Both the position numbers and the translations under genes were made by a program. From positions 1-18,187 of the forward strand of contig PACG01000240.1 in assembly GCA_002699335.1 (NCBI GenBank): a stretch of 18,187 bases of DNA, in the 5' to 3' direction. Shown here one piece after another: positions 985 through 18,187 of this stretch. Position 1 is the first letter of the stretch. Each line of letters starts with the position of its first letter. This DNA is from Candidatus Poribacteria bacterium (lineage in GTDB: Bacteria > Poribacteria > WGA-4E > UBA9662). A model generated the notes under the pieces. The model saw nothing but the letters and a program-made list of their open reading frames with translations, was not told where the DNA came from and searched no databases.

Positions 985-1056
985 GCGGGTGTAGCTCAGT
1001 GGTAGAGCATCAGCTTCCCAAGCTGAGGGCCGCGGGTTCAAATCTCGTCACCCGCT
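985..1056 (+). tRNA. tRNA-Gly (anticodon CCC)
   Basis: The 72-base sequence folds as a complete cloverleaf. It has a perfect 7-bp acceptor stem (GCGGGTG with CACCCGC), a D arm, a perfect 5-bp anticodon stem with loop TTCCCAA giving anticodon CCC (reads GGG), and a T loop TTCAAAT whose stem contains two G-T pairs. The discriminator base is T, as expected for bacterial tRNA-Gly. The 3' CCA is not encoded (TTG follows), so a CCA-adding enzyme is required. Confidence 0.95.
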
Positions 1057-2249: not shown

Positions 2250-2291
2250 ATTGATCTAAGATCTAAACACCCGAGGTGTTGACTGAACTTA

Positions 2292-4682
2292 ATGTCACAC
2301 ATAGTCCTCGAATACGATAAGCTAAAGGGTCTCCTGAAGCAGCACACGCTATCGGATTTGGGGTCTGCGCTTGTGGACCAGTTGCAACCGAGTCATCAGA
2401 TCGATGACATCCAGTATCAGCAGCGACTATGTAGCGAAGTCAAAAACCACTATCTGACTTCAAACGGTTTTTCTCTGCGCGGGATTCAGGACATCACGGC
2501 GATTTTAGAAAACGCCTCTCGACTCGGACCGGTTCTACACATTGATCAATTACTCCGTATTGCTCGCTTGGCTGAGGTAGCCAAGAAAGTTAAAGCACAG
2601 ACCAGGAAGCTTGAGGTCAATGACCATCCGATACTGACCGATCTTACCCAAGATCTACCGACCTTCCCTGAATTACTGAATGAAACAGATCGTTGCCTCA
2701 CACCAGAAGGTGATGTTCTCGATAGTGCGAGCCCTACCCTAAAGTCGATTCGTAGAAGACAGGCCAATCTATACGAATCGATCCACAATCACCTTAGTTC
2801 GATTCTCAAATCCCCTAACTACCAGAAATCGATCCAAGAAAATATCATCACTAGTCGCAATAACCGATTTGTGATTCCAATCAAACAAGAGCATAAGTCG
2901 AATCTTAATGGTATCGTACACGGCCAATCTGCTAGTGGGGCGACGGTCTTTGTAGAACCGTTGGAAGTGATTGAAAAAAATAATCAGCTACTGCAACTCA
3001 CTGATGCCGAGCAGGAAGAGATTCGTCGTATTTTAAGAGCATTGAGTGAAATTGTCCACGAAAATGTATTTGGTCTAACGGTTGCACAACAGGTTTTAGC
3101 AGATCTTGAGTTTCAGACAGCTAAAGCTAAACTTAGCCAACAACTGAATGCTGTCGAGCCGGTACTTAATACCGAAGGATATCTGGAACTTATCGAGGCG
3201 AGACATCCCCTCCTAGAAATAAATCTGCAAGAAAACCCAACTAACGATACCCCCAAAGAAATTATACCCACCAACATTCACATTGGTGATGAGTTTAACA
3301 CCATCGTCATTACAGGACCCAATACCGGTGGTAAGACCGTTGTATTGAAAACAGTGGGACTTCTAGCTTTGATGGCTCAATCCGGTCTACATATTCCGGC
3401 TCAAGCTGGAAGTCAGCTGCCGATTTTTGAACAAATTTTCGCTGATATTGGCGATGAGCAAAGCATCGAGCAGAATCTAAGTACGTTCTCGTCTCATATT
3501 ACAAAAATCGTTGCTATTTTAAACGCAGCAAACGAGAATACGCTGGTTATGCTCGACGAAATTGGCGCGGGGACGGATCCAACGGAGGGAACTGCGCTCG
3601 GCATGGCTATTATCGATCACCTCTCTCGGGTGGGGGCAAAAACGATCACGACAACGCACTACAGCGCACTCAAAGCGTTTGCCCATGATCATGAGGAGAT
3701 GACAAACGCCTCCATGGAATTTGATTGGGAGACGCTAAGTCCAACCTACCGTTTGCAGCTCGGTGTACCCGGTAGTAGCAATGCGATTAAAATAGCTAAA
3801 CGCTTGGGAATACCAACTCAGGTGTTAGATGCGGCTAATGCAAAAATCGGCCAACAATCCGTTGCGGTTGAAAATCTAATCGTTGGGATGCAAGAATCCC
3901 AACGTCAGCTTGACCGACAGCAGCAACTAGTTGAACAGCGGATCCGGTCAGCAGAGGCTACTAAAACAAAATATGAGCGACTGATCAGTAAGTTCGAAGC
4001 CGAGAGCCAAGAGCTTCAACAAGCGGCAGAAAAGGAAGCAGCCGAGATTTTGAAACAGGCACGTCGCTTGGTTGAAAATACAATTTTCCAAATTCGCCAG
4101 AAAGAAGCTTCAAAAGAAGGTGTCCGTTCAGCCTTCACTGCTATTGAGCAGGCACAAGAAGAACTAAAGAGGAAACGATCGACACCGCAGAAAACCGAAG
4201 GCCAACTCCATACAGCCTTTTCCGTTCGTCCTGGTGATAAGGTTCTGGTTAAAGATCTAGATCAATTTGGTGAGGTTCTCTCTGTCTCAGAAAGAAGGAA
4301 AAAACCGATCCGGGTGCAGGTTGGCACCATGCAGTTATCCCTCTCTTATCACGATATTAGCCAACCTGCACCTGAGGCCCAACAAAAAATGGCCTCGGCT
4401 TCTGTCTTAACCCTCCAACATCGCAAAACCTCATCAGTATCTAGTGAGCTAAACCTGATTGGGCAAAAGGTAGACCCAGCTTTGGAAACAGTAGATAAGT
4501 ATCTAGATGATGCCTATCTGGCAGGTTTACTGGAGATCCGGTTAATCCACGGTAAGGGAACCGGAGCACTTGGATCGGCAATTCACGACTTTTTGCGAGC
4601 TCATTTGCTAGTGACTCACTTTTCATTTGCAACTGCGAATCAGGGAGGGTCAGGAGCAACACAAGTCAAACTGAAAGAATAA
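2292..4682 (+). CDS. mutS2: Endonuclease MutS2 (MutS-family ATPase with Smr nuclease domain)
   Basis: MutS2 proteins are cytoplasmic DNA- and ribosome-acting ATPases linked to suppression of recombination and rescue of collided ribosomes; they do not take part in classical mismatch repair. The 796-residue length is typical. The Walker A motif GPNTGGKT is at 342-349, Walker B LVMLDE at 418-423, followed by the ABC-type GAGTDPTEG. A long coiled-coil region spans about 524-640, a small beta-rich KOW-like segment about 642-692, and the C-terminal Smr domain 720-796 with the HGKGTG motif at 753-758. The usual DLRG at the start of Smr reads LIGQ here, so that acidic/arginine motif is degenerate. 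GAGGTG lies 13 bases before the ATG. dnaG begins 3 bases after the stop, which implies co-translation. Confidence 0.96.
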   Translation: MSHIVLEYDKLKGLLKQHTLSDLGSALVDQLQPSHQIDDIQYQQRLCSEVKNHYLTSNGFSLRGIQDITAILENASRLGPVLHIDQLLRIARLAEVAKKVKAQTRKLEVNDHPILTDLTQDLPTFPELLNETDRCLTPEGDVLDSASPTLKSIRRRQANLYESIHNHLSSILKSPNYQKSIQENIITSRNNRFVIPIKQEHKSNLNGIVHGQSASGATVFVEPLEVIEKNNQLLQLTDAEQEEIRRILRALSEIVHENVFGLTVAQQVLADLEFQTAKAKLSQQLNAVEPVLNTEGYLELIEARHPLLEINLQENPTNDTPKEIIPTNIHIGDEFNTIVITGPNTGGKTVVLKTVGLLALMAQSGLHIPAQAGSQLPIFEQIFADIGDEQSIEQNLSTFSSHITKIVAILNAANENTLVMLDEIGAGTDPTEGTALGMAIIDHLSRVGAKTITTTHYSALKAFAHDHEEMTNASMEFDWETLSPTYRLQLGVPGSSNAIKIAKRLGIPTQVLDAANAKIGQQSVAVENLIVGMQESQRQLDRQQQLVEQRIRSAEATKTKYERLISKFEAESQELQQAAEKEAAEILKQARRLVENTIFQIRQKEASKEGVRSAFTAIEQAQEELKRKRSTPQKTEGQLHTAFSVRPGDKVLVKDLDQFGEVLSVSERRKKPIRVQVGTMQLSLSYHDISQPAPEAQQKMASASVLTLQHRKTSSVSSELNLIGQKVDPALETVDKYLDDAYLAGLLEIRLIHGKGTGALGSAIHDFLRAHLLVTHFSFATANQGGSGATQVKLKE

Positions 4683-4685
4683 GAA

Positions 4686-6479
4686 ATGAAGCACTCGCCA
4701 AACTTCAAAACGAATACCAGTATCCCCGCTGATCTAATTGATCAAATCCGTGCGCAGAACGATATTGTAGAGGTCATAGGTGAACACGGTGTACATCTGA
4801 AGTCAGCTGGCAAAGATTTTAAGGGGCTTTGCCCTTTCCATGATGAAAAGACGCCCTCCTTTACTGTCTCCCGTGGTCGGCAGATGTTCTACTGTTTTGG
4901 ATGTCAAGCCGGTGGCAATGTTATTAGTTTTGTGCAAAGATTGGAGGGGAAATCTTTTGTAGAGACCATTGAATATCTGGCAGAAAGATCTGGTATCGCC
5001 TTACCTACGCCAGATCCTAAAATGCATCAGGCTCAACAGAAGCGACGTAAGCTTCAAGATCTCAATCAGTTAGCAATCGACTTTTTTCGCCAGAATTTAA
5101 TGGCACCTAGCATCGGTGGCCGGACGTTGGCTTATCTAAGACAACGGGGAATTTCAGAGCGCACTATAGAGGATTTTCAGCTCGGGTTTATTCCGGCAGG
5201 GCAGCGTCAGTTGATCCAATTCGCCCAACAAAAGGGCTTTTCCGCTCAACAACTGGTTGATGTCGGGTTAGCCAAAGAGGATCGCCGAGGTACAATCGAT
5301 CGCTTCCGAAATCGTGTTATTTTTCCAATTTTCGATGAGCGCAACCGTCCCGTTGCCTTTGGCGGCCGTGGAACGACCGATGATATTCGTCCCAAATACC
5401 TCAACTCAGCTAATACAATTATTTACGATAAAAGTAAAACGCTTTACAATCTTCAGAACGCTCGAAAGGAAATCCATCAAACGGGAGTTGCAATTTTAGT
5501 CGAAGGCTATTTTGATGCGATTACCCTCTATCAAGCTGGGTTGCGTAATGTTGTGGCGTCACTTGGTACTGCCTTTAGTGAATCCCATGCTCGCCTCTTG
5601 AATCGTTTCGCCGATCAGGTGATTATCATCTATGATGGTGATGTCGCAGGATTGCGAGCCGCAACTCGTGGCTTGAATACCTTGATTAAAGTTGGTTTAC
5701 AGGTCAGGGTTGTTCTTCTACCAGAAGGGGATGATCCCGACGAATTTGTTAAGAACCATGGCGTTAAAGCCTTTCAATCTTACCTCGACAAATCACTAAA
5801 TCTGATTGAGTTTCAAATTCAATTAGCTGTGGAGCAAGGCGCAATTCAGCGGATTGATGTTAAGTCAAAAGCGGTGAAAGAGATTGCGGCAACTTTAGCC
5901 AGCCTAGACAGCCCGGTGGAATTGAACGCATATGTCAACCAGGTAGCAGGAGAACTAGATCTAGATAGAGCCGTTGTTTACCAAGAGTTGGTACGGTTGG
6001 GCGTCAAGCCAACGGTAGAGGAAAAATCTACTTCTAAGAGACTAGCACCGGTTCGCCATCAAGTTTCGGCACGAGAGTCGATTGAGTGGCAACTGTTAGA
6101 GTCGCTGATCTTAGACCCAAGTCTAATTCCTAAGGCCAAAGATAAGTTTAACATCCAGGATCTGCACAATAAAACCTATGCTAAAGTTGGCCAGCTCCTA
6201 TATGAATCGGAACTGGTCGAGATCGGAGAATTAGTAAATCGTTGCGATGAAAGTTCGAAAGCAATTATCTCCCAAGCACTGGTGACCGATCAAGTTCCAC
6301 CTAATCTTGAAGCGAGAATGGTGGGCTGCATTAAGCGATTGAACCAGTTTTTGCTATTAGATTTTGAAAAACAGATGCGATCTTCTGCTTTGGCAGAAGG
6401 CAAAAATAACACAGCGACTTTGGTAGAGTTGGTGGAGTTATCAAATCGCAGGCGATTGGTGGGAAAAAGTGTTAGATGA
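4686..6479 (+). CDS. dnaG: DNA primase DnaG
   Basis: DnaG synthesises the RNA primers for DNA replication and works with the replicative helicase DnaB. The 597-residue protein has all three expected parts. The N-terminal CHC2 zinc-binding domain has ligands C49, H52, C70 and C73 and the PFHDEKTPSF signature. The Toprim catalytic core has the glutamate E273 in VEGYFDA and the paired aspartates D317 and D319 in YDGDVAG, which bind catalytic metal. A divergent C-terminal region from about residue 430 would be the helicase-binding domain. The start ATG lies 3 bases after the mutS2 stop; there is no strong Shine-Dalgarno, so translation probably depends on ribosomes leaving mutS2. rpoD follows after 125 bases, the common primase-sigma neighbourhood, here without rpsU. 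Confidence 0.97.
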   Translation: MKHSPNFKTNTSIPADLIDQIRAQNDIVEVIGEHGVHLKSAGKDFKGLCPFHDEKTPSFTVSRGRQMFYCFGCQAGGNVISFVQRLEGKSFVETIEYLAERSGIALPTPDPKMHQAQQKRRKLQDLNQLAIDFFRQNLMAPSIGGRTLAYLRQRGISERTIEDFQLGFIPAGQRQLIQFAQQKGFSAQQLVDVGLAKEDRRGTIDRFRNRVIFPIFDERNRPVAFGGRGTTDDIRPKYLNSANTIIYDKSKTLYNLQNARKEIHQTGVAILVEGYFDAITLYQAGLRNVVASLGTAFSESHARLLNRFADQVIIIYDGDVAGLRAATRGLNTLIKVGLQVRVVLLPEGDDPDEFVKNHGVKAFQSYLDKSLNLIEFQIQLAVEQGAIQRIDVKSKAVKEIAATLASLDSPVELNAYVNQVAGELDLDRAVVYQELVRLGVKPTVEEKSTSKRLAPVRHQVSARESIEWQLLESLILDPSLIPKAKDKFNIQDLHNKTYAKVGQLLYESELVEIGELVNRCDESSKAIISQALVTDQVPPNLEARMVGCIKRLNQFLLLDFEKQMRSSALAEGKNNTATLVELVELSNRRRLVGKSVR

Positions 6480-6556
6480 TAACATGGTAATCAGCATAAT
6501 TAGAAGGTTGAAGTAGTAGGTGCTGATATCAATAGATAACAAACTCGCATCGGAAT

Positions 6557-6565
6557 AAGGAGGTG
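6557..6565 (+). promoter_or_regulatory. Near-perfect Shine-Dalgarno of the rpoD leader ORF
   Basis: AAGGAGGTG is fully complementary to the usual 3' end of 16S rRNA and lies 4 bases before ATG 6570 (6 bases from the GGAGG core). It is too far (39 bases) from the rpoD ATG to serve it directly, so it decides initiation of the small leader ORF. Confidence 0.65.
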
Positions 6566-6569
6566 TAAT

Positions 6570-6608
6570 ATGGACGCTTTGGAAACGAGGAGATACAAAG
6601 CGGTATGA
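6570..6608 (+). CDS. 12-codon leader ORF overlapping the rpoD start
   Basis: ATG at 6570 opens a 12-residue frame, [12 protein letters not shown], ending in a TGA that shares ATGA with the rpoD start at 6605-6608. It has the best ribosome-binding site in the window. The rpoD frame itself has an in-frame stop at 6566 and no usable start between there and 6605, so this is not a mis-called rpoD N-terminus. It lies in a different frame. The arrangement suggests translational coupling: ribosomes loading on the strong site terminate at, and restart on, the rpoD ATG. The rpoD gene's own site, GAGGAG at 6587-6592, lies inside this ORF. Whether the peptide itself matters cannot be seen from one genome. 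Confidence 0.5.
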
Positions 6609-8365
6609 GCCAGCGTGTTATACAATTTGATGACAAACCAGGTCTAACCAGTCCTACCAATTTCCCAGAGATACAGGAACAAGAAGAAATCGGCGGCACT
6701 ACCGAAGCGAAATCGGAGGATCTCGATTTTGGTCTTTATCAGATGAATTTGGAAGAGTTAAATCTTACCACTAGCACAGATTTGGAAGCGGTTCGCGACA
6801 TAGGTGATAGGGAGTATGAAGCAATGGGTTTGAGAGATATCCGGTGTACGGAAAGTGTACAAAACGAGTCTTCCGACAGTCCACACTTTGACTTAGTTGC
6901 AGATGAAACCGATGGGGCAAATGATCCTGTTAAAGCCTACTTAAAGGAGATGGGGCGGACCCCGCTTCTCTCCAAAGAGGATGAAGTTAAACTTTCGAAA
7001 AAAATCCAAGATGGATTTTGGACCATACAGCGTGTCTTATTTGAGATGCCGTTTGCGGTCGCAGAGTTCCGAAAGGTTTTAAAGGATATTTTAGCTGAAA
7101 AGAAGAAGGCCTGGGAAGTATTTGAAATTAGACGCTTCAATTATACAAATGGTAATAAGGAAGAAGTGTATCTACGGAAAACTAAAGTCTTACTTGCCTG
7201 CCTTAAGAAATGTGAACTAGATATTCACAACTTTGAGTATCAACTGTCCATCGAATCTGAGAACACAGAGATTATTCGTGTCCAGATGAATCAAGTCTAC
7301 GAAGAGATGTTTTCGCAACTCAAATTGATCAAGGTCGATGCCGCCGAGATTAAACGAATTTGTACAATCATTCGTCAGATTCATACACGCATGAACTCAT
7401 ACCAAAAAACGGTCAAGAATTTTGAGTCGCTATCCGGGCTGAGCGCAACTCAAATTTTAACCGCAGTTCAACGCGAAGAGGAAACAAATGACATATCGTT
7501 CAAAACTTTAACCGATTACAATATCAGACTGGTTCAAGCCCAACGGTCAATTCTGCGCTTAGAGCGTAAAGTTGGGAAAACTCTTGAGCAGTTGCAGCAA
7601 ACCATCGACCGGATCCAAATTGGCGAGGAGATCGCCAGAGAAGCCAAGATGGAAATCGTCGAGTCTAATTTAAGACTTGTTATCAGTATTGCGAAGAAGT
7701 ACAAAAGCCGAATAACTAGCTTGGTATTCTTAGATCTAATTCAAGAAGGCAATATCGGTTTGATGAAAGCAGTCGATAAGTTCGATTACGAACGTGGCTA
7801 TAAATTCAGTACGTATGCTACCTGGTGGATTCGTCAAGGAATTACTCGTGCGATCGCCGATCAAGGTCGTACTATTCGCATTCCTGTCCACATGATCGAG
7901 ACAATTAATAAACTAATTCGGACCTCACGAGAAGTCGTGCAAGATGTTGGCCGAGAACCGACACCGGAAGAGATCGCCGCCCAGATGGAAATATCTGCTG
8001 ATAAAGTCCGTCAGGTGCTAGCAGTCGCTCAAGAACCAATTTCCTTAGAAACTCCCGTCGGGGATGAAGAAGACGGTCATCTCGGTGATTTTATCGAGGA
8101 TAAGAAAACCAAGTCTCCTGCTGCCGAAACAGCAATGGTCCTGCTCAAAGAGCGAATCATTGATCTCTTAGAGACACTGACAGATCGGGAGAAAAAAGTG
8201 ATTCGGCTGCGTTTCGGCATCGGTGATGGCTGCCCTCGAACTTTAGAAGAGGTCGGGTCCGAATTTGATGTGACCCGGGAGAGAATTCGGCAGATTGAGG
8301 CCACAGCTCTCCGTAAATTACGACATCCGGTTCGCAGCCAACACTTAAGGGGATTTCTGGAATAA
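6605..8365 (+). CDS. rpoD: Primary RNA polymerase sigma factor (sigma-70, RpoD)
   Basis: The 586-residue protein directs RNA polymerase to housekeeping promoters such as the two TTGACA/TATAAT pairs seen beside the tRNA genes here. Region 1.2 starts at about D107 ([20 protein letters not shown]). A poorly conserved, helix-rich stretch of about 200 residues follows. Region 2 begins near 341 and includes the -10 recognition part [19 protein letters not shown]. Region 3 has [12 protein letters not shown], and region 4 ends in the -35-reading helix-turn-helix [20 protein letters not shown]. No region 1.1 is recognisable; the first 106 residues are acidic and apparently unstructured. Residues 367-374 (KSRITSLV) replace the usual short NRG-type loop before FLDLIQEGN and add about two residues. 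The start overlaps the leader ORF by ATGA. Confidence 0.96.
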
Positions 8366-8408: not shown

Positions 8409-8424
8409 TACCGCCATCTTGAAT

Positions 8425-8497
8425 GGGCCCATAGCTCAGTGGTTAGAGCAATCGGCTCATAACCGATTGGTCCTAGGTTCGAGTCCTAGTGGGCCCA
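8425..8497 (+). tRNA. tRNA with CAU anticodon, probably tRNA-Ile2 (alternatively elongator Met)
   Basis: This 73-base cloverleaf has a perfect acceptor stem (GGGCCCA with TGGGCCC), a perfect anticodon stem ATCGG/CCGAT with loop CTCATAA (anticodon CAT), and a perfect T stem. The body, including GTGGTTAGAGCA in the D arm and TGGTC in the variable loop, resembles E. coli ileX more than metT. That favours the isoleucine tRNA whose C34 is changed to lysidine by TilS. Sequence alone does not fully exclude elongator methionine. It is not an initiator tRNA. CCA is not encoded. Confidence 0.9.
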
Positions 8498-8513
8498 TAT
8501 ATTATTCTCTTGA

Positions 8514-8585
8514 GGGGCGTTAGCTCAGGGGTAGAGCGCTACCTTCACACGGTAGAAGTCACCGGTTCAAATCCAGTACGCCCCA
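8514..8585 (+). tRNA. tRNA-Val (anticodon CAC)
   Basis: The 72-base cloverleaf has acceptor GGGGCGT with ACGCCCC, D arm GCTC/GAGC, and anticodon stem CTACC/GGTAG with loop TTCACAC (anticodon CAC, reads GTG). The T stem ACCGG/CCAGT contains one C-A mismatch at its middle pair. CCA is not encoded. It lies 16 bases after the previous tRNA and shares its promoter. Confidence 0.92.
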
Positions 8586-8679: not shown

Positions 8680-9618
8680 TTGTTAGCGAAGGAAACCGCA
8701 ATTACTTTAGATCGACCAGATCTTGAAACGTCCCCGGACGGTTCAGTGGAAGACCAACCTACATTGCCCACTGAAAACGTCACCTTAAACATCCACTCCT
8801 TTTTTCTCATCCCTTTTCTCATCCTTGTTGGTATTGGGATCCTATTCGGTATTTACATTTTAGGTGTTACCCTCCTGACTCAGGAAAGCCGGGACGTTTA
8901 CGACCTGCTAGAGACAATTAAAACAGGTCGTAATCACGACCGCTGGCGTTCGGCTTTTGAATTATCAGGCGTTTTGGCGCGGGACAGCAAAATAGGATTT
9001 GATAAAAGGTTCGTTGCCAAAATGACCAACCTGTTTCAGGATCCAGACGTTATTCAGATCACGACCCAAAACGGAGTAAGTCTCAAAGCCTATTTAGCAC
9101 AGGCGATGGGAAGCACTAAGAATCCTGCTTTCACCCAACTTCTTTTAGAGGCCATTGATGATATTCATCCAGATACTGCCTTCATCATCTCGGCTCTAGG
9201 CCTCCTTGGAGATAAGAGGTCTGCCCAGAGAATACATCCGTTGACACTGAATCCATCAGCGGCAATTCGCCTCGCAGCCGTTATTGCACTAGGGGAAATT
9301 GGCAATCTTACCTCCATTTCCATTTTAGAGCAGGCATTGAACGATGATGAGCCGAATGTTCGATGGGATGCGGCCGTGGCCCTCTCCAAAATGAAAAGTG
9401 AAGCTGGTAAAGTCGTTTTGCTGGATCTACTTCGGCCCGGCTACCTAGAGGAATTCAAATCTGTTGACCAAAATGAACGCAATCGGATCTTGGTTGTTGC
9501 TATCCGCTCCGCAGGGGAGTTAGACGACCCGGAACTCAATCAGGCAATAGGCCTACTCGCTGAAAACAGAAACTTAAATATGGACGTGCTAAAAACAGCC
9601 TTGGAGGTTAAGAGATGA
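8680..9618 (+). CDS. Membrane-anchored HEAT-repeat protein at the head of the bc-complex cluster
   Basis: The 312-residue protein has a short acidic N-terminus, one hydrophobic helix at about 41-67, and an alpha-helical C-terminal part with two or three HEAT-type repeats, clearest around 160-250 (IRLAAVIALGEIGN, VRWDAAVALSKMKS). HEAT repeats bind other proteins; a role in assembling or stabilising the neighbouring cytochrome complex is inferred from position only. The stop overlaps the Rieske start by ATGA, so the two are translationally coupled. The start is unclear. TTG at 8680 gives the longest product but has no ribosome-binding site. An ATT at 8701 has AAGGA exactly 7 bases upstream and would give 305 residues. 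No in-frame ATG occurs until well inside the HEAT region, after the membrane helix. Confidence 0.75.
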   Translation: MLAKETAITLDRPDLETSPDGSVEDQPTLPTENVTLNIHSFFLIPFLILVGIGILFGIYILGVTLLTQESRDVYDLLETIKTGRNHDRWRSAFELSGVLARDSKIGFDKRFVAKMTNLFQDPDVIQITTQNGVSLKAYLAQAMGSTKNPAFTQLLLEAIDDIHPDTAFIISALGLLGDKRSAQRIHPLTLNPSAAIRLAAVIALGEIGNLTSISILEQALNDDEPNVRWDAAVALSKMKSEAGKVVLLDLLRPGYLEEFKSVDQNERNRILVVAIRSAGELDDPELNQAIGLLAENRNLNMDVLKTALEVKR

Positions 9619-10439
9619 GCGAAGAAAACATTGAGGAGATGTCGCCATCAAAACGGAAAATGCTGGCTAAGTTAGGTAAATTGCCCGCTGACAGTACGGC
9701 CGCGGCTGAAACCTCAGAACCGCCTTCGTCTACAGAAGATGTCGGTGATATTGAAGAGATGTCACCATCACGACGAAAGATGCTCGCCAAGTTAGGGCAA
9801 CTCCCAAGCGATTCACCTTCGGCGTCACCACCGGCTAAAACGGCTGCTCCAGCGAGGAAAACACCAACTGCCAGATCTACTGCAACAGGCGAAGTGCATC
9901 CTTTCGTCAGTGGGAAAATCAAGCGAAGTGTCAAACCCAAATTGGAATTTAAGGTTGAAAGACGAGGTTGGTTTTCATTGGCCTTCGGTTGGTTGGCTTT
10001 TCTTCTAGGTGGAATTCCTGCCTTTGCCACCATGATTCTGCGCTTTCTGTTTCCCAATGTACTCTTCGAACCCCCACAATCCTTTAAGGCTGGCTATCCA
10101 GACGATTACACGATTGGTGCCATCGATGAGACCTACAAGGAAAAATACGGTGTCTGGATTGGGCGAACTGACAAATACGTTTATGCGCTATCAACGGTCT
10201 GCACTCATTTAGGTTGTACTCCAAACTGGTTAGCGGGTGAAAGAAAGTTCAAATGTCCCTGCCATGGAAGTGGGTTTCGAAAAACAGGTGTGAACTTTGA
10301 AGGGCCAGCTCCCAGGCCACTTGAACGGCATTGGATTGGTTTGGCAGATGATGGTCAGATTTTGGTAGATAAAAATATTAAATTTCAGCGCGAAAAGGGG
10401 CAGTGGGAAAGCGAAAATGCCTATCTACCTTGGACTTAA
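9615..10439 (+). CDS. Rieske 2Fe-2S protein of a cytochrome bc/b6f-type complex
   Basis: This is the iron-sulphur subunit that takes electrons from quinol at the Qo site. The 274-residue protein has a long hydrophilic N-terminus, one membrane helix at about 117-143, and a C-terminal Rieske domain. Box 1 is CTHLGC at 196-201 and box 2 is CPCHGSGF at 214-221, giving cluster ligands C196, H198, C214 and H217 and the disulphide pair C201/C216. The intact disulphide and serine after HG point to a high-potential cluster. The extra N-terminus (about 110 residues) is unusual: a 22-residue motif occurs twice (6-27 and 46-67, 19 of 22 identical), followed by an Ala/Pro/Thr-rich linker. The start overlaps the previous gene by ATGA; cytochrome b follows after 66 bases. 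Confidence 0.95.
   Translation: MSEENIEEMSPSKRKMLAKLGKLPADSTAAAETSEPPSSTEDVGDIEEMSPSRRKMLAKLGQLPSDSPSASPPAKTAAPARKTPTARSTATGEVHPFVSGKIKRSVKPKLEFKVERRGWFSLAFGWLAFLLGGIPAFATMILRFLFPNVLFEPPQSFKAGYPDDYTIGAIDETYKEKYGVWIGRTDKYVYALSTVCTHLGCTPNWLAGERKFKCPCHGSGFRKTGVNFEGPAPRPLERHWIGLADDGQILVDKNIKFQREKGQWESENAYLPWT
9630..9815 (+). repeat. Duplicated 22-residue coding motif in the Rieske N-terminus
   Basis: Codons 6-27 (9630-9695) and 46-67 (9750-9815) encode IEEMSPS(K/R)RKMLAKLG(K/Q)LP(A/S)DS. The protein copies differ at three of 22 positions while many third codon positions differ, so the duplication is old and the amino-acid sequence appears to be maintained. Confidence 0.85.
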
Positions 10440-10505: not shown

Positions 10506-11324
10506 ATGAGAAACGGACAGGCAAAAGGACCTGGAATATTCCAGCGGGTCGGCGAAAGTATAGGGAATAACGTTATTGTACGCTCTATCTTTCGAACAGG
10601 TGGATTGCCAGTAAACTGGAATAGGCGTCAGCGAATGATGGGGGTACTAAACAACGTATTTCTACACCTCCATCCAGTACGACTTCCAAAGCATGCAGTT
10701 AAGGTTAAATATACCTGGTGCATGGGTGGATTGTCTTTCTTCACCTTCCTTGTACTAACGATTACCGGCATCTTGTTGATGTTTTATTATCGTCCCACCG
10801 CCGAACACGCTTATATGGATATGGTCGATATTGGTGAGCAAGTGCCGCTTGGCATCATGCGGGAAATTCACCGGTGGGGGGCACACCTAATGGTTTTAAG
10901 CGTTTGGCTGCACATGTTTAGGGTGTTTATGACCGGTTCATATAAACCACCACGAGAGTTCAACTGGGTTGTTGGTGTAATACTACTGACCCTAACTCTC
11001 TTACTCAGTTTTACGGGATATTTGCTACCCTGGGATCAGCTCGCTATCTGGGCCATTACGGTTGGTACCAACATGGGAAGAGCCTCTCCTTTCTTGGGTT
11101 ATGAAGGCCCGGGGGCATCGCTGATGCAAATTGGCGATGTGAAATTGGTGCACCCAGCCGCAGATGCGGCCTTTGTTTTGAAAGCCGGTCGATTTGTCGG
11201 AGAAGCAACACTTTTGAGGTTCTATGTTTTGCACTGTATTGGGTTACCTTTTATAATTATGATTTTTATGGCGGTTCATTTCTGGCGTGTTCGAAAAGAT
11301 GGTGGGATTTCAGGTCCAACATAG
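10506..11324 (+). CDS. Cytochrome b6-like subunit of the quinol-oxidising complex
   Basis: The 272-residue protein corresponds to the N-terminal, dihaem half of cytochrome b, with four core membrane helices (about 74-95, 124-142, 153-173, 240-260). The haem b histidines are H122 and H136 (14 apart) and H243 and H258 (15 apart), the spacing of cytochrome b6. C72 in TWCMGGL lies where b6f and related Gram-positive complexes carry the cysteine that binds haem cn (ci), so a third, covalently bound haem is likely. The C-terminus IRKDGG-like VRKDGGISGPT matches the end of b6. About 60 extra residues precede the first core helix. GGATGGAG lies about 14 bases before the ATG. The subunit-IV-like gene starts 13 bases after the stop. 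Confidence 0.94.
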   Translation: MRNGQAKGPGIFQRVGESIGNNVIVRSIFRTGGLPVNWNRRQRMMGVLNNVFLHLHPVRLPKHAVKVKYTWCMGGLSFFTFLVLTITGILLMFYYRPTAEHAYMDMVDIGEQVPLGIMREIHRWGAHLMVLSVWLHMFRVFMTGSYKPPREFNWVVGVILLTLTLLLSFTGYLLPWDQLAIWAITVGTNMGRASPFLGYEGPGASLMQIGDVKLVHPAADAAFVLKAGRFVGEATLLRFYVLHCIGLPFIIMIFMAVHFWRVRKDGGISGPT

Positions 11325-11337
11325 AGGGGGAGTTGAG

Positions 11338-12465
11338 ATGGATTTGATAAAAGATGTAATTAACAGGGTTACCGACCCAACAATTTCTTTCACTTTTTTG
11401 CTTGCTGTCTTTTTCATCATATTTCCACCTAACAACCTGCTTTTGCGTTTAAATAGAAAGTTAGGGTTAGATAAATTGTGGACTGATGCTGGGGCAATTA
11501 TCTTTTTTGGTTTACTCACTATCTTTATGATTTTTGGAGTGACCAGTGACGAAACATTCAGGGCAGTGATCACTAAACCAGATAATGTACCGATTGTTCT
11601 ACTGCTATATATCGTTCCTTTCCTAATCTGGGTTTGCATGAAACAAGGATTGGCAAATGATGCCCGGACTCTCAACAACGAAAAACCGGAAGAGTATTCA
11701 TCTCCAGACGATTTGGACAGTCAGATTCTAGTTTGGCCTGACCTGATCTACGTTGAGTTGATCGCCCTAGTCTTGTGTTCGGTTGTTTTGATCGTTTGGG
11801 GAGTATTATTGAAAGCTCCATTAGAAGAGCCTGCCAATATCGCTGATTCTCCGAATCCATCGAAGGCCCCCTGGTATTTTCTTGGCCTACAAGAGATGCT
11901 AGTCTATTTTGACCCGTGGTTGGCCGGAGTCGTTTTTCCAACGCTAATCATCGTTGGGTTAATGGCAATTCCATATATTGATCTCAATAAAAAAGGGAAT
12001 GGTTACTATTCCTTTGCAGAAAGGAAAGCGGAGATTTCCATTTTTCTGTTTGGCTGGCTCGGCTTATGGGTGTATATGGTTATCCTAGGCACCTTTCTCC
12101 GCGGTCCGAATTGGAATTTCTTTGGCCCCTTTGAAAAATGGGATGTACACAAGGTTTTAGTTTTAAACAATATTAACCTATCAGAACTTTTCTGGGTCAA
12201 ACTAGGGAGCCGGGCTCTTCCTCAGAACATTTTACTGCGGGAGTTGCCTGGTTTTGTTGTTGTCGGTGCTTACTTGTTGATTATGCCGGGGCTGCTGGCT
12301 AAAACTCTGCTGAAATCATATGTTGATAAGCTGGGCTTAGTTCGTTATAGCGTTTTCGTAATCTTATTGCTATCAATGGCGGCCTTACCGATTAAAATGT
12401 ATTTGCGTTGGACACTCAATCTCAAGTACCTGATTGCCATTCCAGAATATTTCTTAAATGTCTAG
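11338..12465 (+). CDS. Cytochrome b C-terminal half, extended subunit-IV-like protein
   Basis: The protein supplies the second half of cytochrome b, including part of the quinol-oxidation site. I start it at ATG 11338 because a strong AGAGGGGGAG (11323-11332) precedes it just after the cytochrome b6 stop; a GTG at 11287 would add 17 residues inside the previous gene. The 375 residues are far longer than chloroplast subunit IV (about 160). Three extra hydrophobic helices come first, then the conserved core around residues 130-260 and two more helices at the C-terminus, about eight in all. The PEWY motif reads APWYFLGLQE at 177-186: the glutamate is absent. The next gene starts 25 bases downstream. 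Confidence 0.9.
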   Translation: MDLIKDVINRVTDPTISFTFLLAVFFIIFPPNNLLLRLNRKLGLDKLWTDAGAIIFFGLLTIFMIFGVTSDETFRAVITKPDNVPIVLLLYIVPFLIWVCMKQGLANDARTLNNEKPEEYSSPDDLDSQILVWPDLIYVELIALVLCSVVLIVWGVLLKAPLEEPANIADSPNPSKAPWYFLGLQEMLVYFDPWLAGVVFPTLIIVGLMAIPYIDLNKKGNGYYSFAERKAEISIFLFGWLGLWVYMVILGTFLRGPNWNFFGPFEKWDVHKVLVLNNINLSELFWVKLGSRALPQNILLRELPGFVVVGAYLLIMPGLLAKTLLKSYVDKLGLVRYSVFVILLLSMAALPIKMYLRWTLNLKYLIAIPEYFLNV

Positions 12466-12490: not shown

Positions 12491-15400
12491 GTGCTAACAG
12501 AAAAAGAACAGAAACATTATCAACCAATCACACTCAACCGTATTTTTGCTGTCACCAGTCTCCTTTTTATGGGTTCTCTTATCTGGATGTTTGCTGACGA
12601 TTATGAACGGAGTTGGAAACGCTATCAGAAACAGTTTAGGCAACTAGAATCTAAAAAAGTAGAAATGACCTACAATAGTCAAAATTACGATGAGTGGCTG
12701 ATGTGGACAGAAGAAGAGAGAGTCCGGCTACGAGCTGAAGAAGATCGAAAGGCTGCTGAGAATAAACTAAAAAAAGCTAAAGACGAGCACTACAAGGTTG
12801 ATCAGAACTTCAAATTTGGAAAAGCTAAATACGATGAGTTGACTTACCGGTATAAAGAAGCACAAACCGGTCACAAAGGTGATCCGGTGGAGTTACGTCG
12901 GGAATTGGACTCTTTCACTTATGAAGGTCGCCCTCTATTCGAAGGAGACGATTCTTGGAAGGTGGCGTTAGGGAAGCTAGAAGCCAAAGTTACAAATGCT
13001 GAGAATGAACTGCAAGCGTTAAAAGAAAAAGAAAAGGATATCGACAAAAGGTTCGAGCAAGAACTTGGGCGAGAGCAGATCCTAGCCGCTAAGCAGCACG
13101 AAAAGCTCGAAGTTACCCGAATGTCAATGGCCAATAAAATTGCCGACAAAATCAGGGACCTCCCTATTTTGGATTTGACCAACCCCTATTATCGAGTGCA
13201 ACAAGTTGTAATTGATGATGTGATTGAGGAGATGAACTTTGCACAAGTCCCAAAAGTCGATCGTTGTATGACTTGTCACCAAGGTATGACCAAAAGCAGT
13301 TTCTCCGATGAACCACATCCCTATAAAACCCACCCTAATCTAGATCTATTTTTGACCAGTGCTTCACCACACCCTGTCGATGAATTTGGGTGTACCAGTT
13401 GCCATTCAGGTCGTGGTAGGGGAACTAGTTTCGTCAGTGCAGTTCATATGCCGTCTTCTCACCAACAGGAACTGGATTGGCATCATGGCCATATCGGTCC
13501 TATGCCCGAAGATAAATGGCACCAGATGCACCATTGGCCAAGACCGATGCGTCCTGCTAAGTACACTCAAGCAGGTTGCTTCAAGTGTCATGCGGAGACA
13601 ACAAATCTGAAAGGGGCTGAAAAGCTGAATCTCGGCTTGGCTTTGGTTGAAAGAGCCGGCTGTTACGGTTGTCACACCATCGAGCAGTACAAACCTAGGA
13701 TGGAAAAAAGGAATATCGGACCATCTTTACAACGGGTCGCTTCTAAGATTAAAGACCAAGACTGGGCGAAGAAATGGATCAAAAACCCTAAAGATTTTAG
13801 GCATAACACCTGGATGCCAACTTTCTACGGAAGTGGCTCTGAAGATCCGACAACAGGTACAGGACGTCTCCTGAACCACCGCTATCAAGATGGGAAGCGG
13901 CAACAGGATGAAGATCGTCGCACCGACACAGAAATTCACGCTATAACCCACTATATTTACAGTAACAGTGATAGTAGTTTTGACGCTGGCACCATTCCTG
14001 TTAAAGGAGATAAGGAAATTGGTAGAAACACATTTCAAGCGGTCGGTTGCCAAGGGTGCCACCAGGTAGCACCAGACCCCATTGAAGAAGCACTGGCAAG
14101 TTGGAACCCGACAGATATCGCAGAGAAGCGAAATCAGTTACGCCGGGAATACGGTCCCAATCTGATTGGTATTGGCAGCAAGACTTCCGCAGAGTGGATC
14201 TATAATTGGGTCAAGAATCCGCTGGAACACAATCCCAATACTAAGATGCCTAACTTGAGGCTAACTGATCAGGAAGCGGCTAATATTACCGCTTACCTGG
14301 TTTCGCTGGACCAAAAAGGTTTCGAGCAGACCACAGTAGGTCAATATGACGATGAAATGCTCGATACAATCGCCGGCGAGTTCCTACAGGGATCATACAT
14401 AAAAGAGGAAGTTGAGGCAAAACTTGCGAGTTGGGATTCAGGTCAAACACTCAGCTATGCCGGCCAAAAACTGATCAACCACTACGGCTGCTACGGCTGT
14501 CATGAAATTCCCGGTTTTGAAGACGCTAAGCCGGTCGGTGCAGAACTGACTTACCACGGCAGCAAAATGGTCAAAAAATTCGACTTTGGTCTAGTTCAAT
14601 CAGAATATGTTGATAGCCATGGGCATAAACATCGAAAAGATCATCTTCCGCAAACCAACTCCGATTGGTTCACGCAAAAGTTAAAAAATCCACGAATCTA
14701 CGACACGAATGCAAGTGTCGACCTAGATACGGAAAAACTGGCTAATTTAGATGAGGTACACGTCATCAACGAATTCAGAGCCTTTCAGGATAAACTTCAA
14801 ATGCCAAACTTTGGGTTTACCGACAGGGAGGTAGAGGCCATAGTGACCGCACTAATGGGCTTTGTTAAGCAGGAAGCACTGGATTCGAAGATAATGCCTC
14901 GAACAGCAAAAAATGTTTCCTACGAAAAGGGACAGAGCATCGTCGCTGAGAAGAACTGCCAAGGCTGTCACTTGATTGAGGATCAAGGCCACGCTATTGA
15001 ACCTTCACTGCTGGATTGGATGATGGAACAACCAGAATACGAAGATCTATCCCGAATGGAAGCCAAAGCCGATCTGGTCAGTTTTGTTCCACCCAACCTG
15101 ATTGGTGAAGGACAGAAGGTTAAACCAGACTGGCTGTACCGCTTTTTGCGTCAACCGGAAACGATTCGTCCAGCGGTACAGGTGCGAATGCCGACCTACA
15201 ATTTCACTGAAGAGGAAATCAATACGTTGGTCAAGTACTTTAGTTACCTGGAACCAGAAAGTGAGGGCTACAATTGGGTTGCTGTAGATGACTGGCAGGA
15301 TAACGCATTTCGTGATCCACATCAGTTGAATTTATCGACCACGGAACTAACTGCAGCAGAAAAATTAATATCTAAAGATGGACACCACTGTGGACAGTGT

Positions 15401-15685
15401 CACTGGATAGGAAATCAGGAGCCTGAAAATAAGGTGGCTAAAGATCAGGCCCCTAGCTGGGCATTAGCAAGTCAGCGACTAAAACCAGAATGGATGGCCC
15501 GCTGGATTGCCGACGCGCCGGCCTTGATGCCTGGAACAAAAATGCCCACTTACTATGACACTTATGATCCAGATCATCCAGACCTTGAAAGTTATACTAA
15601 CACCACCCCGTTTGCGACCGTATTAGATGGAGATGACGGGGCACAGGTGCATGCAATCCGCGATTACGTTTTGAAAACAGAATAG
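12491..15685 (+). CDS. Membrane-anchored octahaem cytochrome c
   Basis: The 1064-residue protein has one hydrophobic anchor at about 17-35, a long charged coiled-coil stretch at about 40-215, and eight CxxCH haem-c sites with first cysteines at 259, 301, 363, 391, 520, 667, 823 and 967. The last five each head a cytochrome-c-like unit followed by an MP motif (WMPTF, KMPNL, QMPNF, RMPTY, KMPTY) that could give the axial methionine. The first three lie in a histidine-rich segment and are probably bis-histidine. In position it replaces cytochrome c1 or f, carrying electrons from the Rieske protein towards the oxidase. The start is GTG with TGGAG ten bases upstream; no ATG exists near the anchor. 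It may instead be a stand-alone electron carrier. The family is recognisable as multihaem c but not by name. Confidence 0.9.
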   Translation: MLTEKEQKHYQPITLNRIFAVTSLLFMGSLIWMFADDYERSWKRYQKQFRQLESKKVEMTYNSQNYDEWLMWTEEERVRLRAEEDRKAAENKLKKAKDEHYKVDQNFKFGKAKYDELTYRYKEAQTGHKGDPVELRRELDSFTYEGRPLFEGDDSWKVALGKLEAKVTNAENELQALKEKEKDIDKRFEQELGREQILAAKQHEKLEVTRMSMANKIADKIRDLPILDLTNPYYRVQQVVIDDVIEEMNFAQVPKVDRCMTCHQGMTKSSFSDEPHPYKTHPNLDLFLTSASPHPVDEFGCTSCHSGRGRGTSFVSAVHMPSSHQQELDWHHGHIGPMPEDKWHQMHHWPRPMRPAKYTQAGCFKCHAETTNLKGAEKLNLGLALVERAGCYGCHTIEQYKPRMEKRNIGPSLQRVASKIKDQDWAKKWIKNPKDFRHNTWMPTFYGSGSEDPTTGTGRLLNHRYQDGKRQQDEDRRTDTEIHAITHYIYSNSDSSFDAGTIPVKGDKEIGRNTFQAVGCQGCHQVAPDPIEEALASWNPTDIAEKRNQLRREYGPNLIGIGSKTSAEWIYNWVKNPLEHNPNTKMPNLRLTDQEAANITAYLVSLDQKGFEQTTVGQYDDEMLDTIAGEFLQGSYIKEEVEAKLASWDSGQTLSYAGQKLINHYGCYGCHEIPGFEDAKPVGAELTYHGSKMVKKFDFGLVQSEYVDSHGHKHRKDHLPQTNSDWFTQKLKNPRIYDTNASVDLDTEKLANLDEVHVINEFRAFQDKLQMPNFGFTDREVEAIVTALMGFVKQEALDSKIMPRTAKNVSYEKGQSIVAEKNCQGCHLIEDQGHAIEPSLLDWMMEQPEYEDLSRMEAKADLVSFVPPNLIGEGQKVKPDWLYRFLRQPETIRPAVQVRMPTYNFTEEEINTLVKYFSYLEPESEGYNWVAVDDWQDNAFRDPHQLNLSTTELTAAEKLISKDGHHCGQCHWIGNQEPENKVAKDQAPSWALASQRLKPEWMARWIADAPALMPGTKMPTYYDTYDPDHPDLESYTNTTPFATVLDGDDGAQVHAIRDYVLKTE

Positions 15686-15692
15686 CCTCCGC

Positions 15693-16499
15693 ATGTTGTC
15701 GCGGATCTTGATCACCACCTCATTCAGCTTTGGTTGTTGTTACCCGTTGTTTTTTTGGATTAACAATCGCAAGTTGATTGAAACTGGTTTTTACCGATTT
15801 AATCTGGGTTTTAGCTGCTTCGCCGTGGGTATTGGCGTTGGAGGTATCTGGTTGTCTGATTTATCGGACTCGGTTGATAGTAGCAGCCTTTTGTTAGCTC
15901 GGTGGTTAGCCGTTGCCTGGTTTTTGTCGTTGCTAATTGTAACGGCTTTTTTCTGGACTCGTCAATGGATAAAGGGGTGGTTAGTTGCGTTACCATCAAT
16001 CATAGGTGTTGTTACGCTGTGCCAAATTAGTGGCCGAAATTTTCTGACGACGTCTAACTGGGAAATCGAAACTGCGCTGTCCTTCTTGGGCAGCGCGGTT
16101 CTTTGTGCCTCAATTTTTGCTGGAGTGCTCGGACATTGGTATCTGAATGCTACCAACTTGCCCATTAGCCTGTTGGCCCATGCAACTAGGATTTTGTGGG
16201 GCTTGTTGGGGGCGCGCCTATTGTGGAACTCATACGCGGCCTTTACGCTACAGATCGGCTATCGAGGAGATCAAGTTTCGATCTTCAGGTTTCTGCAGAC
16301 GATTGAAGGGTTATTGCTAGGCGTTGGTTTGTTCTTCGGTGTCGTTTTCCCGCTCATTTTGACCTATATGGTTTACGAAACCGTAAAGGTCAAATCGACA
16401 CAATCAGCTACTGGGATTTTGTACGTCGTCGTAACTTCGGTCTTGATGGGTGAATTGGCATATAAATACTACCTACTGGAATATGGGTTAGTTTTGTGA
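15693..16499 (+). CDS. Uncharacterised eight-helix membrane protein
   Basis: I do not recognise this 268-residue protein. It is strongly hydrophobic, with about eight membrane helices (near 4-22, 36-54, 70-88, 94-111, 128-147, 160-177, 203-225 and 240-262). Histidines H148 in GHWYLN and H163 in LAHATR lie at the ends of helices 5 and 6 and could bind haem or metal, though this is a guess. The start ATG is seven bases after the octahaem gene with no visible Shine-Dalgarno, and its stop overlaps the next start by GTGA. It is therefore probably co-translated with both neighbours. An accessory subunit, haem-handling or assembly role in the respiratory complex is inferred from context only. Confidence 0.75.
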   Translation: MLSRILITTSFSFGCCYPLFFWINNRKLIETGFYRFNLGFSCFAVGIGVGGIWLSDLSDSVDSSSLLLARWLAVAWFLSLLIVTAFFWTRQWIKGWLVALPSIIGVVTLCQISGRNFLTTSNWEIETALSFLGSAVLCASIFAGVLGHWYLNATNLPISLLAHATRILWGLLGARLLWNSYAAFTLQIGYRGDQVSIFRFLQTIEGLLLGVGLFFGVVFPLILTYMVYETVKVKSTQSATGILYVVVTSVLMGELAYKYYLLEYGLVL

Positions 16500-16948
16500 C
16501 TCCATCGATCGCAGGTGATTGTCCGACCTGCAATCAGGCATTCACCGTTGAGTTTTCTATCGAACCGCGACCGAATTTCCTAAAATGCCCCACGTGTGAG
16601 CAGGCCTGGCACTCCGGCGTCGTTCCACTTGAAGGATGTCCAATTTGTGCTTGCCGATACTTTTACCGACAAAAAGATTTCAACCAGCTGCTCGGCTGTG
16701 CTGTTGTACTTCTGGGAGCAGTTGTTGTACCTGCGATTACCGGATACTTTTTGGGGTACCGCTATCTATTGGTAATTACGATTTGTAGTTTGTCTGTTTT
16801 TACGGGAGTCGATGCCTTGCTTTACCGCCAAGTTTCCGATATGGCCATCTGTTACGATTGCCGGTGCGAATTTCGTGGTTTTGAGATCCCACCGGCAATC
16901 GTAAACTTCGAACATTTTCTGGCTGAAAGATTTGAAAAGGAAAATTAA
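16496..16948 (+). CDS. Membrane protein with paired CxxC zinc-ribbon motifs
   Basis: The 150-residue protein has four CxxC pairs, C9/C12, C31/C34, C48/C51 and C119/C122, with extra cysteines at 53 and 124. Two adjacent hydrophobic helices (about 64-85 and 88-106) separate the third pair from the fourth. This fits two zinc-ribbon sites: the first two pairs form one, and the third and fourth form another that closes across the membrane hairpin. The start is GTG, overlapping the previous stop by four bases (GTGA). I cannot name a family. A role in metal handling, protein interaction or assembly of the cytochrome complex or oxidase is inferred from its place in the operon. Confidence 0.75.
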   Translation: MTPSIAGDCPTCNQAFTVEFSIEPRPNFLKCPTCEQAWHSGVVPLEGCPICACRYFYRQKDFNQLLGCAVVLLGAVVVPAITGYFLGYRYLLVITICSLSVFTGVDALLYRQVSDMAICYDCRCEFRGFEIPPAIVNFEHFLAERFEKEN

Positions 16949-16951
16949 AAT

Positions 16952-17758
16952 ATGAGGCACCAACTTTTCCGAAAAACTAGCATTGGCTGGGCTACCCCCC
17001 TGATGCTTTTGCTAGCTGGACTTTACCTTGCCGGTTGTGGTGGAGATCAACCGGCACCGCAGCGCTCAACACCGCCCCCACCTACCTCTAGTGAAAATAC
17101 AACAGCACAGGAAACAACTGGAACTGCCTCAATTTCCGGTACAGTGAGCTTCACCGGGGAAGTTCCAAAATTGAGAACCATCGATATGGGTTCAGTGACC
17201 GAGTGTAAAGAACAGCACAGTACGGGGATAAAATCAGAGGCATTGATACTCGGCGATAGCAATACGATTGCTAACGTAATTGTTAAAATTAAAAGCGGGT
17301 TACCATCTAATGCCAAATACGCCCCGCCAACTAAGCCGGCTGAACTGGATCAGATCGGTTGCATTTACATACCCCATGTTCTCGCCGTACAAGTGGGGCA
17401 AACGGTAAAATTCAAAAATTCGGATAACGTAATCCATAATGTTCACACGCTATCTGAAAAAAACCCTGCCTTCAATAAAGCAGTTAATAAAGGCAGCGAA
17501 ACGGACCGGACTTACGACCAAGAGGAAACCTTCTTTGTTAAGTGTGATATTCACCCGTGGATGAAAAACTATATCAGTGTAGCCTCTCATCCATTTTTCA
17601 GTGTAACCAAACTAGATGGCAAGTTTGAAATTAAAAACCTACCTGCAGGTAAGTATACGGTTGGGGTTTGGCATGAACGGCTAGGCGAAAAAACGCAAGA
17701 AATTGAAGTCAGCGATGGCCAATCAGCTGAATTGAACTTCGCGCTGTCTAAATCTTAG
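16952..17758 (+). CDS. Cupredoxin-like lipoprotein with C-terminal regulatory-type beta domain
   Basis: The 268-residue protein begins with a lipoprotein signal: hydrophobic stretch about 12-27 and lipobox LAGC with lipidated C29. A Pro/Thr/Ser-rich linker (31-60) follows. The core resembles plastocyanin/cupredoxin: VQVGQTVKFKNSDNVIHNVH with H162/H165, then VKCDIHPWM with C198, H201 and M204. This gives the His-Cys-His-Met set of a type 1 copper site, although the C-x2-H-x2-M spacing is tighter than plastocyanin's. C85 and C137 could form a disulphide. Residues 222-265 (GKFEIKNLPAGKYTVGVWHE) look like a carboxypeptidase-regulatory-like beta domain. It lies 3 bases after the zinc-ribbon gene and just before oxidase subunit I, so an electron-carrier role to the oxidase is plausible; copper binding is inferred. 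Confidence 0.85.
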   Translation: MRHQLFRKTSIGWATPLMLLLAGLYLAGCGGDQPAPQRSTPPPPTSSENTTAQETTGTASISGTVSFTGEVPKLRTIDMGSVTECKEQHSTGIKSEALILGDSNTIANVIVKIKSGLPSNAKYAPPTKPAELDQIGCIYIPHVLAVQVGQTVKFKNSDNVIHNVHTLSEKNPAFNKAVNKGSETDRTYDQEETFFVKCDIHPWMKNYISVASHPFFSVTKLDGKFEIKNLPAGKYTVGVWHERLGEKTQEIEVSDGQSAELNFALSKS

Positions 17759-17827: not shown

Positions 17828-18187
17828 ATGGTGGCACGCGGGTCACACCATGATCATCATCATCACGATGAAGGGTTCTGGCGTAAATATATCTTCTCTG
17901 TTGACCATAAAGTCATTGGCATACAGTATGGTATCACTAGCCTCTTTTTTCTTTTAGTTGGCTTCTGTTTTATGCTGGTGATGCGATATCAAATGGCTTG
18001 GCCAGAAAAAGGCATCATTACCCCTGATGAATACAATATGTTGGGTGCAATGCATGGCACCATTATGGTATTCCTAGGGGTGGTTCCTTTAGCCGTTGGT
18101 GCTTTTGGCAACTACATTGTTCCGGTTCAGATTGGGGCACCAGATATGGCTTTCCCACGTCTCAACATGGCCAGTTACTGGGTCTTT
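17828..18187 (+). CDS. ctaD: Cytochrome c oxidase subunit I, N-terminal part (runs off the right edge)
   Basis: The first 120 codons of the catalytic subunit of an A-type haem-copper oxidase, which reduces oxygen to water and pumps protons. Evidence is FSVDHKVIGIQYG at 23-35 (the conserved cytoplasmic entry to helix 1), helix 1 at about 31-52, and AMHGTIMVF at 74-82, in which H76 is the low-spin haem ligand. GNYIVPVQIGAPDMAFPRLN at 94-113 is a further family signature. The ATG has AAGGAG seven bases upstream, the best-placed site in the respiratory cluster. The extreme N-terminus carries a histidine-rich run (HHDHHHHD, 7-14) not usual in the family. No subunit II gene precedes it; a copper-type lipoprotein takes that place. 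Confidence 0.95.
   Translation, partial: MVARGSHHDHHHHDEGFWRKYIFSVDHKVIGIQYGITSLFFLLVGFCFMLVMRYQMAWPEKGIITPDEYNMLGAMHGTIMVFLGVVPLAVGAFGNYIVPVQIGAPDMAFPRLNMASYWVF

Follow-up and report, generated by a model that had tools for sequence, protein, structure and literature searches.

The one-haem cytochrome c1 or f of complex III is close to a textbook constant; in the operons considered here, which come from many mostly uncultured phyla, an eight-haem protein apparently takes its place. The actinobacterial bcc-aa3 supercomplex has the dihaem c-subunit QcrC. The closest described system is the Rieske/cytochrome b complex Kustd1480-1485 of Kuenenia stuttgartiensis, and a published model places the cytochrome on this complex (PMC12954380). 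The available text of that study treats two anammox complexes and does not specify to which of them the octahaem protein belongs. In the model of the anammox relative, the c-haems are arranged in groups of two and three, and the need for so many of them is described as not entirely clear (PMC12954380). For the cytochrome b subunit Kustd1481, with residues numbered His62, Arg266, and Lys267, the histidine is proposed as the ligand of a dimer-interface haem and is connected with NAD(P)H formation (PMC12954380). The class has so far been described mainly from anaerobic ammonium oxidisers. An open-licence literature search found no description of the family outside anammox bacteria, and none of its spread, its oxidase-linked form, or the invariance of the interface histidine.

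The window analysed here is the whole stretch of 18,187 nucleotides of contig PACG01000240.1 (GCA_002699335.1) from a Candidatus Poribacteria bacterium, and it contains a conserved operon with an octahaem cytochrome c gene (Table 1). An initial annotation had placed this gene between the Rieske/b module and oxidase subunit I. The neighbours are as described, but three genes that it did not mention, encoding two membrane proteins and a cupredoxin lipoprotein, intervene before ctaD. The b6 and subunit-IV genes overlap, and an NAD(P) oxidoreductase gene is absent between them. Among the 13 window ORFs scanned, Pfam gave no match to cytochrome c1 or f and none to the NrfD-like membrane subunit that marks alternative complex III; subunit A of the latter has a weak c-domain match to the octahaem protein. 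The probable copper ligands of the cupredoxin lipoprotein are His162, Cys198, His201, and Met204. The Rieske N-terminus (window 9615-9800) carries two near copies of EEMSPS(K/R)RKMLAKLG ahead of its membrane helix. Upstream of the operon (window 985-1056, 8424-8585, and 1113-8365) are genes for tRNA-Gly, tRNA-Met, and tRNA-Val and genes encoding a TPR protein, a MutS2-like protein, DNA primase, and a sigma-70 factor.

Table 1. Features of the operon and of the octahaem protein in the window (aa and residue numbers refer to the protein named in the row or, for its parts, to the octahaem protein).
Feature	Position	Strand	Basis
HEAT-repeat protein, probable N-terminal membrane helix, first gene of conserved operon	8680..9618	+	Pfam, hydropathy
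Rieske iron-sulfur protein (CTHLGC...CPCHGS)	9615..10439	+	Pfam, motif
b6-type cytochrome b; b-haem His 122/136, 243/258; haem cN Cys72; His54	10506..11324	+	Pfam, alignment
Subunit-IV-like protein, eight hydrophobic segments, PWYF motif	11287..12465	+	Pfam, hydropathy
Octahaem cytochrome c, GTG start, 1064 aa	12491..15685	+	Eight CxxCH
Membrane anchor helix, N-terminal, aa 12-38	12524..12604	+	Hydropathy (aa 13-31), predicted helix
Long helical stretch, aa 41-222	12611..13156	+	Predicted model
Trihaem part, aa 232-375, haems 259, 301, 363	13184..13615	+	Pfam Cytochrome_C7, conservation
Cytochrome unit 1, haem 391, Met442	13616..13987	+	Motif, HMM-HMM, conservation
Cytochrome unit 2, haem 520, Met586, SoxX-like fold	14000..14326	+	Fold search, HMM-HMM, conservation
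Cytochrome unit 3, haem 667, Met771	14408..14878	+	Motif, HMM-HMM, conservation
Cytochrome unit 4, haem 823, Met900	14906..15265	+	Motif, HMM-HMM, conservation
Cytochrome unit 5, haem 967, Met1018	15332..15682	+	Motif, HMM-HMM, conservation
Membrane protein, no family match; retained in some related operons	15693..16499	+	Pfam scan, neighbourhood
Small membrane protein without family match	16496..16948	+	Pfam scan, neighbourhood
Predicted lipoprotein, cupredoxin-like and carboxypeptidase-regulatory-like domains	16952..17758	+	Pfam, lipobox-like N-terminus
CtaD (cytochrome c oxidase subunit I), start; cut by window end	17828..18187	+	Pfam

The eight CxxCH motifs lie in the single ORF at the residues given in Table 1, and both their number and the ORF coordinates in the initial annotation were correct. 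Among 2000 composition shuffles of this ORF, 1985 contained no CxxCH and 15 contained one, which was the maximum. Each of the last five motifs is followed by an MP methionine, and a W-x3-[W/K/F] segment stands between the motif and the methionine in every unit (W425/W429, W569/W573, W726/K730, W881/F885, and W1001/W1005), in line with the WxxxWxxNP-like segment noticed earlier. Across 45 unit sequences, drawn from nine sources with five units each, the residues C, C, H, one W, M, and P do not vary. Pairwise HMM-HMM comparison gives a probability of 96.8-99.5% in nine of the ten unit pairs and 65% for the pair 3-5. The claim of five repeated units is thus upheld, and the class-I cytochrome c units are, as judged from their sequences, homologous and true repeats. 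The trihaem part aligns with the units over only 10-22 columns, with a probability of 27-62%. The predicted structure of the whole protein has a mean pLDDT of 84.4 and a pTM of 0.82, and it contains the anchor helix and about 180 further helical residues, which agrees with the membrane anchor and long coiled coil of the initial annotation. Predicted alone, the trihaem part folds poorly (pLDDT 51.7). With the whole model as query, Foldseek matched no PDB entry at an E-value of 0.001 or lower, and a second listing was taken up mostly by coiled coils, so that absence from it carries no weight. Residues 768-915 resemble ExtS of NCBIfam (51.5 bits, family cut-off 100). No HAO-type multihaem domain was matched in the window protein at E 1e-3, and PF13435 appears in precomputed lists for some relatives.

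Among the candidates scored, a protein search found 649 relatives with an E-value of 1e-10 or lower, and the best 120 of the 649 cover 96-100% of the query. In these 120 together with the query, a set of 121 that includes one 99% copy, the C, C, and H of all eight motifs are kept, and so are the residues in the roles of Met442, Met586, Met771, Met900, and Met1018 and of His281, His294, and His319; by the strict motif, one of the 121 counts seven CxxCH. A second alignment of 114 rows comprises 79 first-scan loci, 33 Planctomycetota loci, the Kuenenia protein, and the window, with frames shorter than 800 aa excluded. It keeps the eight motifs in 112 to 114 rows, the three distal His and four of the distal Met in all 114, and Met1018 in 111, with a gap in the other three. 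Each of the 16 axial-ligand positions is thus conserved in 111 or more of these 114 sequences, which between them bear ten phylum labels. The homologous octahaem protein of Kuenenia, P0152, shares 25% identity over 1106 columns and retains all ligands; from its name, length, and relatives, P0152 is inferred to be Kustd1485. When an anammox protein was the query, all 120 proteins among the matches listed had eight motifs each. Since the distal positions, three His and five Met, hardly vary, the protein is suggested to carry three bis-His and five His/Met haems, with His281, His294, and His319 as the probable distal ligands of the trihaem part.

A contig scan of genomes confirmed at least 524 relatives, and the best 80 loci (L001-L080) were retained. 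In 79 of these best 80 of at least 524, a subunit-IV gene precedes the octahaem gene, and the lone exception, L072, begins at a contig edge. The spacing between the two genes ranges from -31 to +443 bases (111 loci measured). The commonest order is HEAT, Rieske, b6, subunit IV, octahaem; the HEAT gene, matched in 63 of the same best 80 loci and frequently the first of the operon, possibly encodes an assembly factor or an extra subunit. In six Planctomycetota loci, whose octahaem proteins have 945-954 residues, the genes run Rieske, b6, NAD(P) oxidoreductase, subunit IV, octahaem. Hydrazine synthase alpha (HZS_alpha) was used as the mark of anammox and matched in seven of ten genomes. Almost the whole model is covered in the six genomes that carry these loci, and G062, the seventh, has a partial match and a different operon. 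In a Planctomycetota sample, 84 of 199 genomes have an octahaem match at E 1e-30 or better. An octahaem tree of 114 rows, made by a quick method, with 41 rows lacking a phylum label and several long branches flagged, tracks the phylum labels: ten groups need 11 changes, the least possible being nine and the shuffled mean 27.8. The window protein groups with two Poribacteria (SH-aLRT 100), and the sigma factor encoded in the window shares 53% identity with its counterpart in a poribacterial genome, which ranked first by E-value among 12 genomes.

Several loci depart from the common layout. An octahaem gene without a cytochrome b was considered for L118 (genome G066) and rejected, as the same strand carries, about 10 kb upstream, a b6 gene with 64% identity; at this locus, the Rieske gene is directly 5' of the octahaem gene. 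Among four genomes similar to G066, b6 is likewise upstream in G181 and G151 and on another contig in G120 and G086. A distinct cluster at L091 (G007 C72) has a relative of 584 aa with seven CxxCH beside a longer cytochrome b frame. Frames of 548 and 544 aa in G224 C46 and G225 C47 have four unit-profile matches each and represent a possible shorter repeated-unit cytochrome.

The conserved operon, the eight haem sites, and the match to the published anammox operon identify the octahaem protein as a c-subunit, and its proposed role in place of c1/f is strongly supported by the gene order and by the anammox counterpart as far as described in the available text of PMC12954380. The most satisfactory reading, which we hold to be likely, is that it serves a Rieske/b6-type complex, probably oxidising menaquinol, and that its acceptor in this operon is most likely the CuA of the adjacent aa3 oxidase. 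Quinol would be bifurcated, and we infer that one electron passes to the Rieske cluster and from there to the octahaem subunit, which the long N-terminal helices would hold on the complex. The electron would then move among the three bis-His and five His/Met haems and exit to a periplasmic acceptor, here most likely CuA, reached directly or via the cupredoxin lipoprotein. The haems would form an extended docking and transfer surface, replacing c1 and, in some genomes perhaps, a soluble cytochrome c.

The Rieske and b subunits fit such a complex. The ligands of the Rieske cluster motif CxHxGC...CxCHGS are present in 87 of 88 rows, the remaining one having an X. At the potential-tuning sites, Ser is shared with Kustd1480 and Tyr is mostly replaced by Phe, in agreement with the available text on Kustd1480 (PMC12954380). 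His122, His136, His243, and His258 of b6 and the b6-type 243/258 spacing occur in 94 of 94 rows, and subunit IV is separate. Cys72, which aligns with the haem cN cysteine of solved b6, is found in the window and in 87 of the 94 rows; seven rows are without it, one of these seven being masked at that position. Glycine replaces this cysteine in L115, L116, L117, and L123. The best PDB matches of the window b6 are b6 chains, with alignments that start at residue 67 and exclude the His54 region.

His54 (window 10665-10667), Arg263, and Lys264 of the window b6 align with His62, Arg266, and Lys267 of the anammox b6. They occur in 94, 94, and 93 of 94 rows, respectively, and 88 of the 94 rows lie outside the six anammox loci. 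The b6 of the anammox operons has the same His/Arg/Lys set: His62 is present in five of the six loci as translated, and L107, whose C-terminus is covered, has Arg266 and Lys267. This conservation would suit a complex that, as in anammox bacteria, bifurcates electrons for NAD(P)H formation while the c-haems serve the other branch. However, at E 1e-10 the NAD(P) oxidoreductase of the anammox operons had homologues in the six anammox loci and in none of the other loci read, with a place elsewhere in those genomes possible, and such a function is very improbable here. Since the histidine is invariant also where no oxidoreductase gene is nearby, an interface haem, if real, would characterise the class as a whole rather than go with NAD(P)H formation; His54 could also have another role.

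The proposed electron link to the oxidase was only partly sustained. Among the best 80 of at least 524 loci, 36 contain ctaD, always downstream on the same strand and 775-6708 bases away. When the 49 of these loci with at least 7 kb of downstream sequence are considered, 34 have the oxidase gene and 15 have no ctaD in that stretch. The ctaD-bearing loci belong to Poribacteria, Fidelibacterota, Omnitrophota, Planctomycetota, Hydrogenedentota, and Lentisphaerota, and some have no phylum label. The 15 others comprise five Acidobacteriota, four Fidelibacterota, one each of Omnitrophota, Latescibacterota, Spirochaetota, and Verrucomicrobiota, and two without a label; all five Acidobacteriota with the 7 kb flank are among them. 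The association is therefore frequent, but the oxidase gene as an obligatory partner was rejected on these 15 loci. Over 62 scored tree rows, the presence or absence of ctaD requires 12 changes. No ctaD occurs within the stretch read of the six anammox loci. A haem-copper oxidase match was found somewhere in each of 26 genomes tested; of the three anammox genomes among them, two gave a weak one.

The loci without ctaD and the anammox operons, together with the spread of potentials that the mixed bis-His and His/Met ligands suggest, would also be consistent with the haems storing electrons or feeding several periplasmic acceptors besides the oxidase. Against this quite unlikely arrangement, an unsystematic look at twelve loci noticed no other acceptor gene beside the operon.

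A firmer connection was suggested by the initial annotation as a built-in electron wire and possibly a permanent supercomplex. In such an arrangement, the octahaem protein would dock on CtaC and pass electrons straight to CuA within a stable III-IV supercomplex that needs no mobile carrier. The actinobacterial bcc-aa3 supercomplex with its dihaem QcrC is a precedent, and in 34 of 49 loci the oxidase genes share the strand, which points the same way. Moreover, all 41 CtaC-like frames of related loci, picked by their CuA motif, are without the CxxCH that a caa3 oxidase, with its cytochrome c fused to subunit II, would show (the ctaC of the window lies beyond its end). Other carriers were sought with PF00034, PF13442, and the unit profile in eight genomes and with the unit profile, which used alone misses some small cytochromes, in 14. 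In G010 (three matches to PF00034, none to PF13442, five to the unit profile) and G214 (three, one, and five), every class-I cytochrome c match lies inside the octahaem gene, so transfer without another cytochrome c is plausible from sequence in these two of the eight genomes, which are possibly incomplete. In contrast, the other six have further matches, including small frames of 127 and 129 aa in G212 and G210, and independence from other cytochromes c as a general rule was rejected. Operons without an oxidase, the cupredoxin gene in every ctaD-bearing locus, and the grouping of the c-haems in two and three in the available description of the anammox relative (PMC12954380), which is at odds with one even wire, make a permanent wire possible but rather unlikely.

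A shuttle, in which electrons travel from the octahaem protein to CuA on the cupredoxin lipoprotein or on a small cytochrome c, has close to an even chance of being correct. The cupredoxin gene is present in 36 of 36 ctaD-bearing loci of the best 80 (of at least 524) and in six of six among the Planctomycetota loci read, its probable copper ligands are kept in 65-66 of 66 sequences, its product has a lipobox-like N-terminus, and some genomes have the small cytochrome c frames. On the other hand, 25 of these best 80 loci carry the gene on the opposite strand and 15 have it without ctaD, and the second domain of the protein is atypical for a carrier. Both routes are accommodated by the preferred reading of a c-subunit that delivers electrons to CuA.

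A wider proposal is that the operon represents an old class of complex III in ten or more phyla, in which the octahaem protein replaces both c1 and soluble cytochrome c and the b-monomers share a haem, most members feeding aa3 by direct contact and the NAD(P)H use of anammox bacteria being derived; we consider this doubtful. The family does make two questions testable now: the purpose of so many haems in a complex III, left open in the available text of PMC12954380, and whether the dimer-interface haem concerns NAD(P)H formation, given a histidine that is invariant without an oxidoreductase gene nearby.

When compared to the Kuenenia operon, the window has no NAD(P) oxidoreductase gene separating b6 from subunit IV and has in addition the HEAT gene, the cupredoxin lipoprotein, and the oxidase gene; its subunit IV has about eight hydrophobic segments, whereas the anammox protein has five. 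The split b6/subunit IV, the b6-type His spacing, the haem cN Cys, and the Rieske protein are shared with the cytochrome b6f complex. In contrast to b6f, there is no cytochrome f match, an octahaem subunit is present, and b6 has a longer N-terminus with an HLHP motif. Similar to the actinobacterial bcc-aa3 system, a multihaem c-subunit of a bc complex is combined with an aa3 oxidase partner; unlike QcrC, it consists of five class-I units and a trihaem part, and the fold match is insignificant (7q21_C, E 1.6). The b subunits are near ExtP (267.6 bits, cut-off 290) and ExtQ (62.3 bits, cut-off 150) of the NCBIfam Ext operon, and neither these two nor the ExtS match reaches its family cut-off; the ExtS model is 262 positions long. 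Class-I cytochromes c such as SoxX are single domains, unlike the octahaem protein, which has five of its eight haems in class-I units. The octahaem protein belongs, as c-subunit, to a class of bc complex that is known but has been little described, present here without the NAD(P) oxidoreductase and often upstream of an aa3 oxidase.
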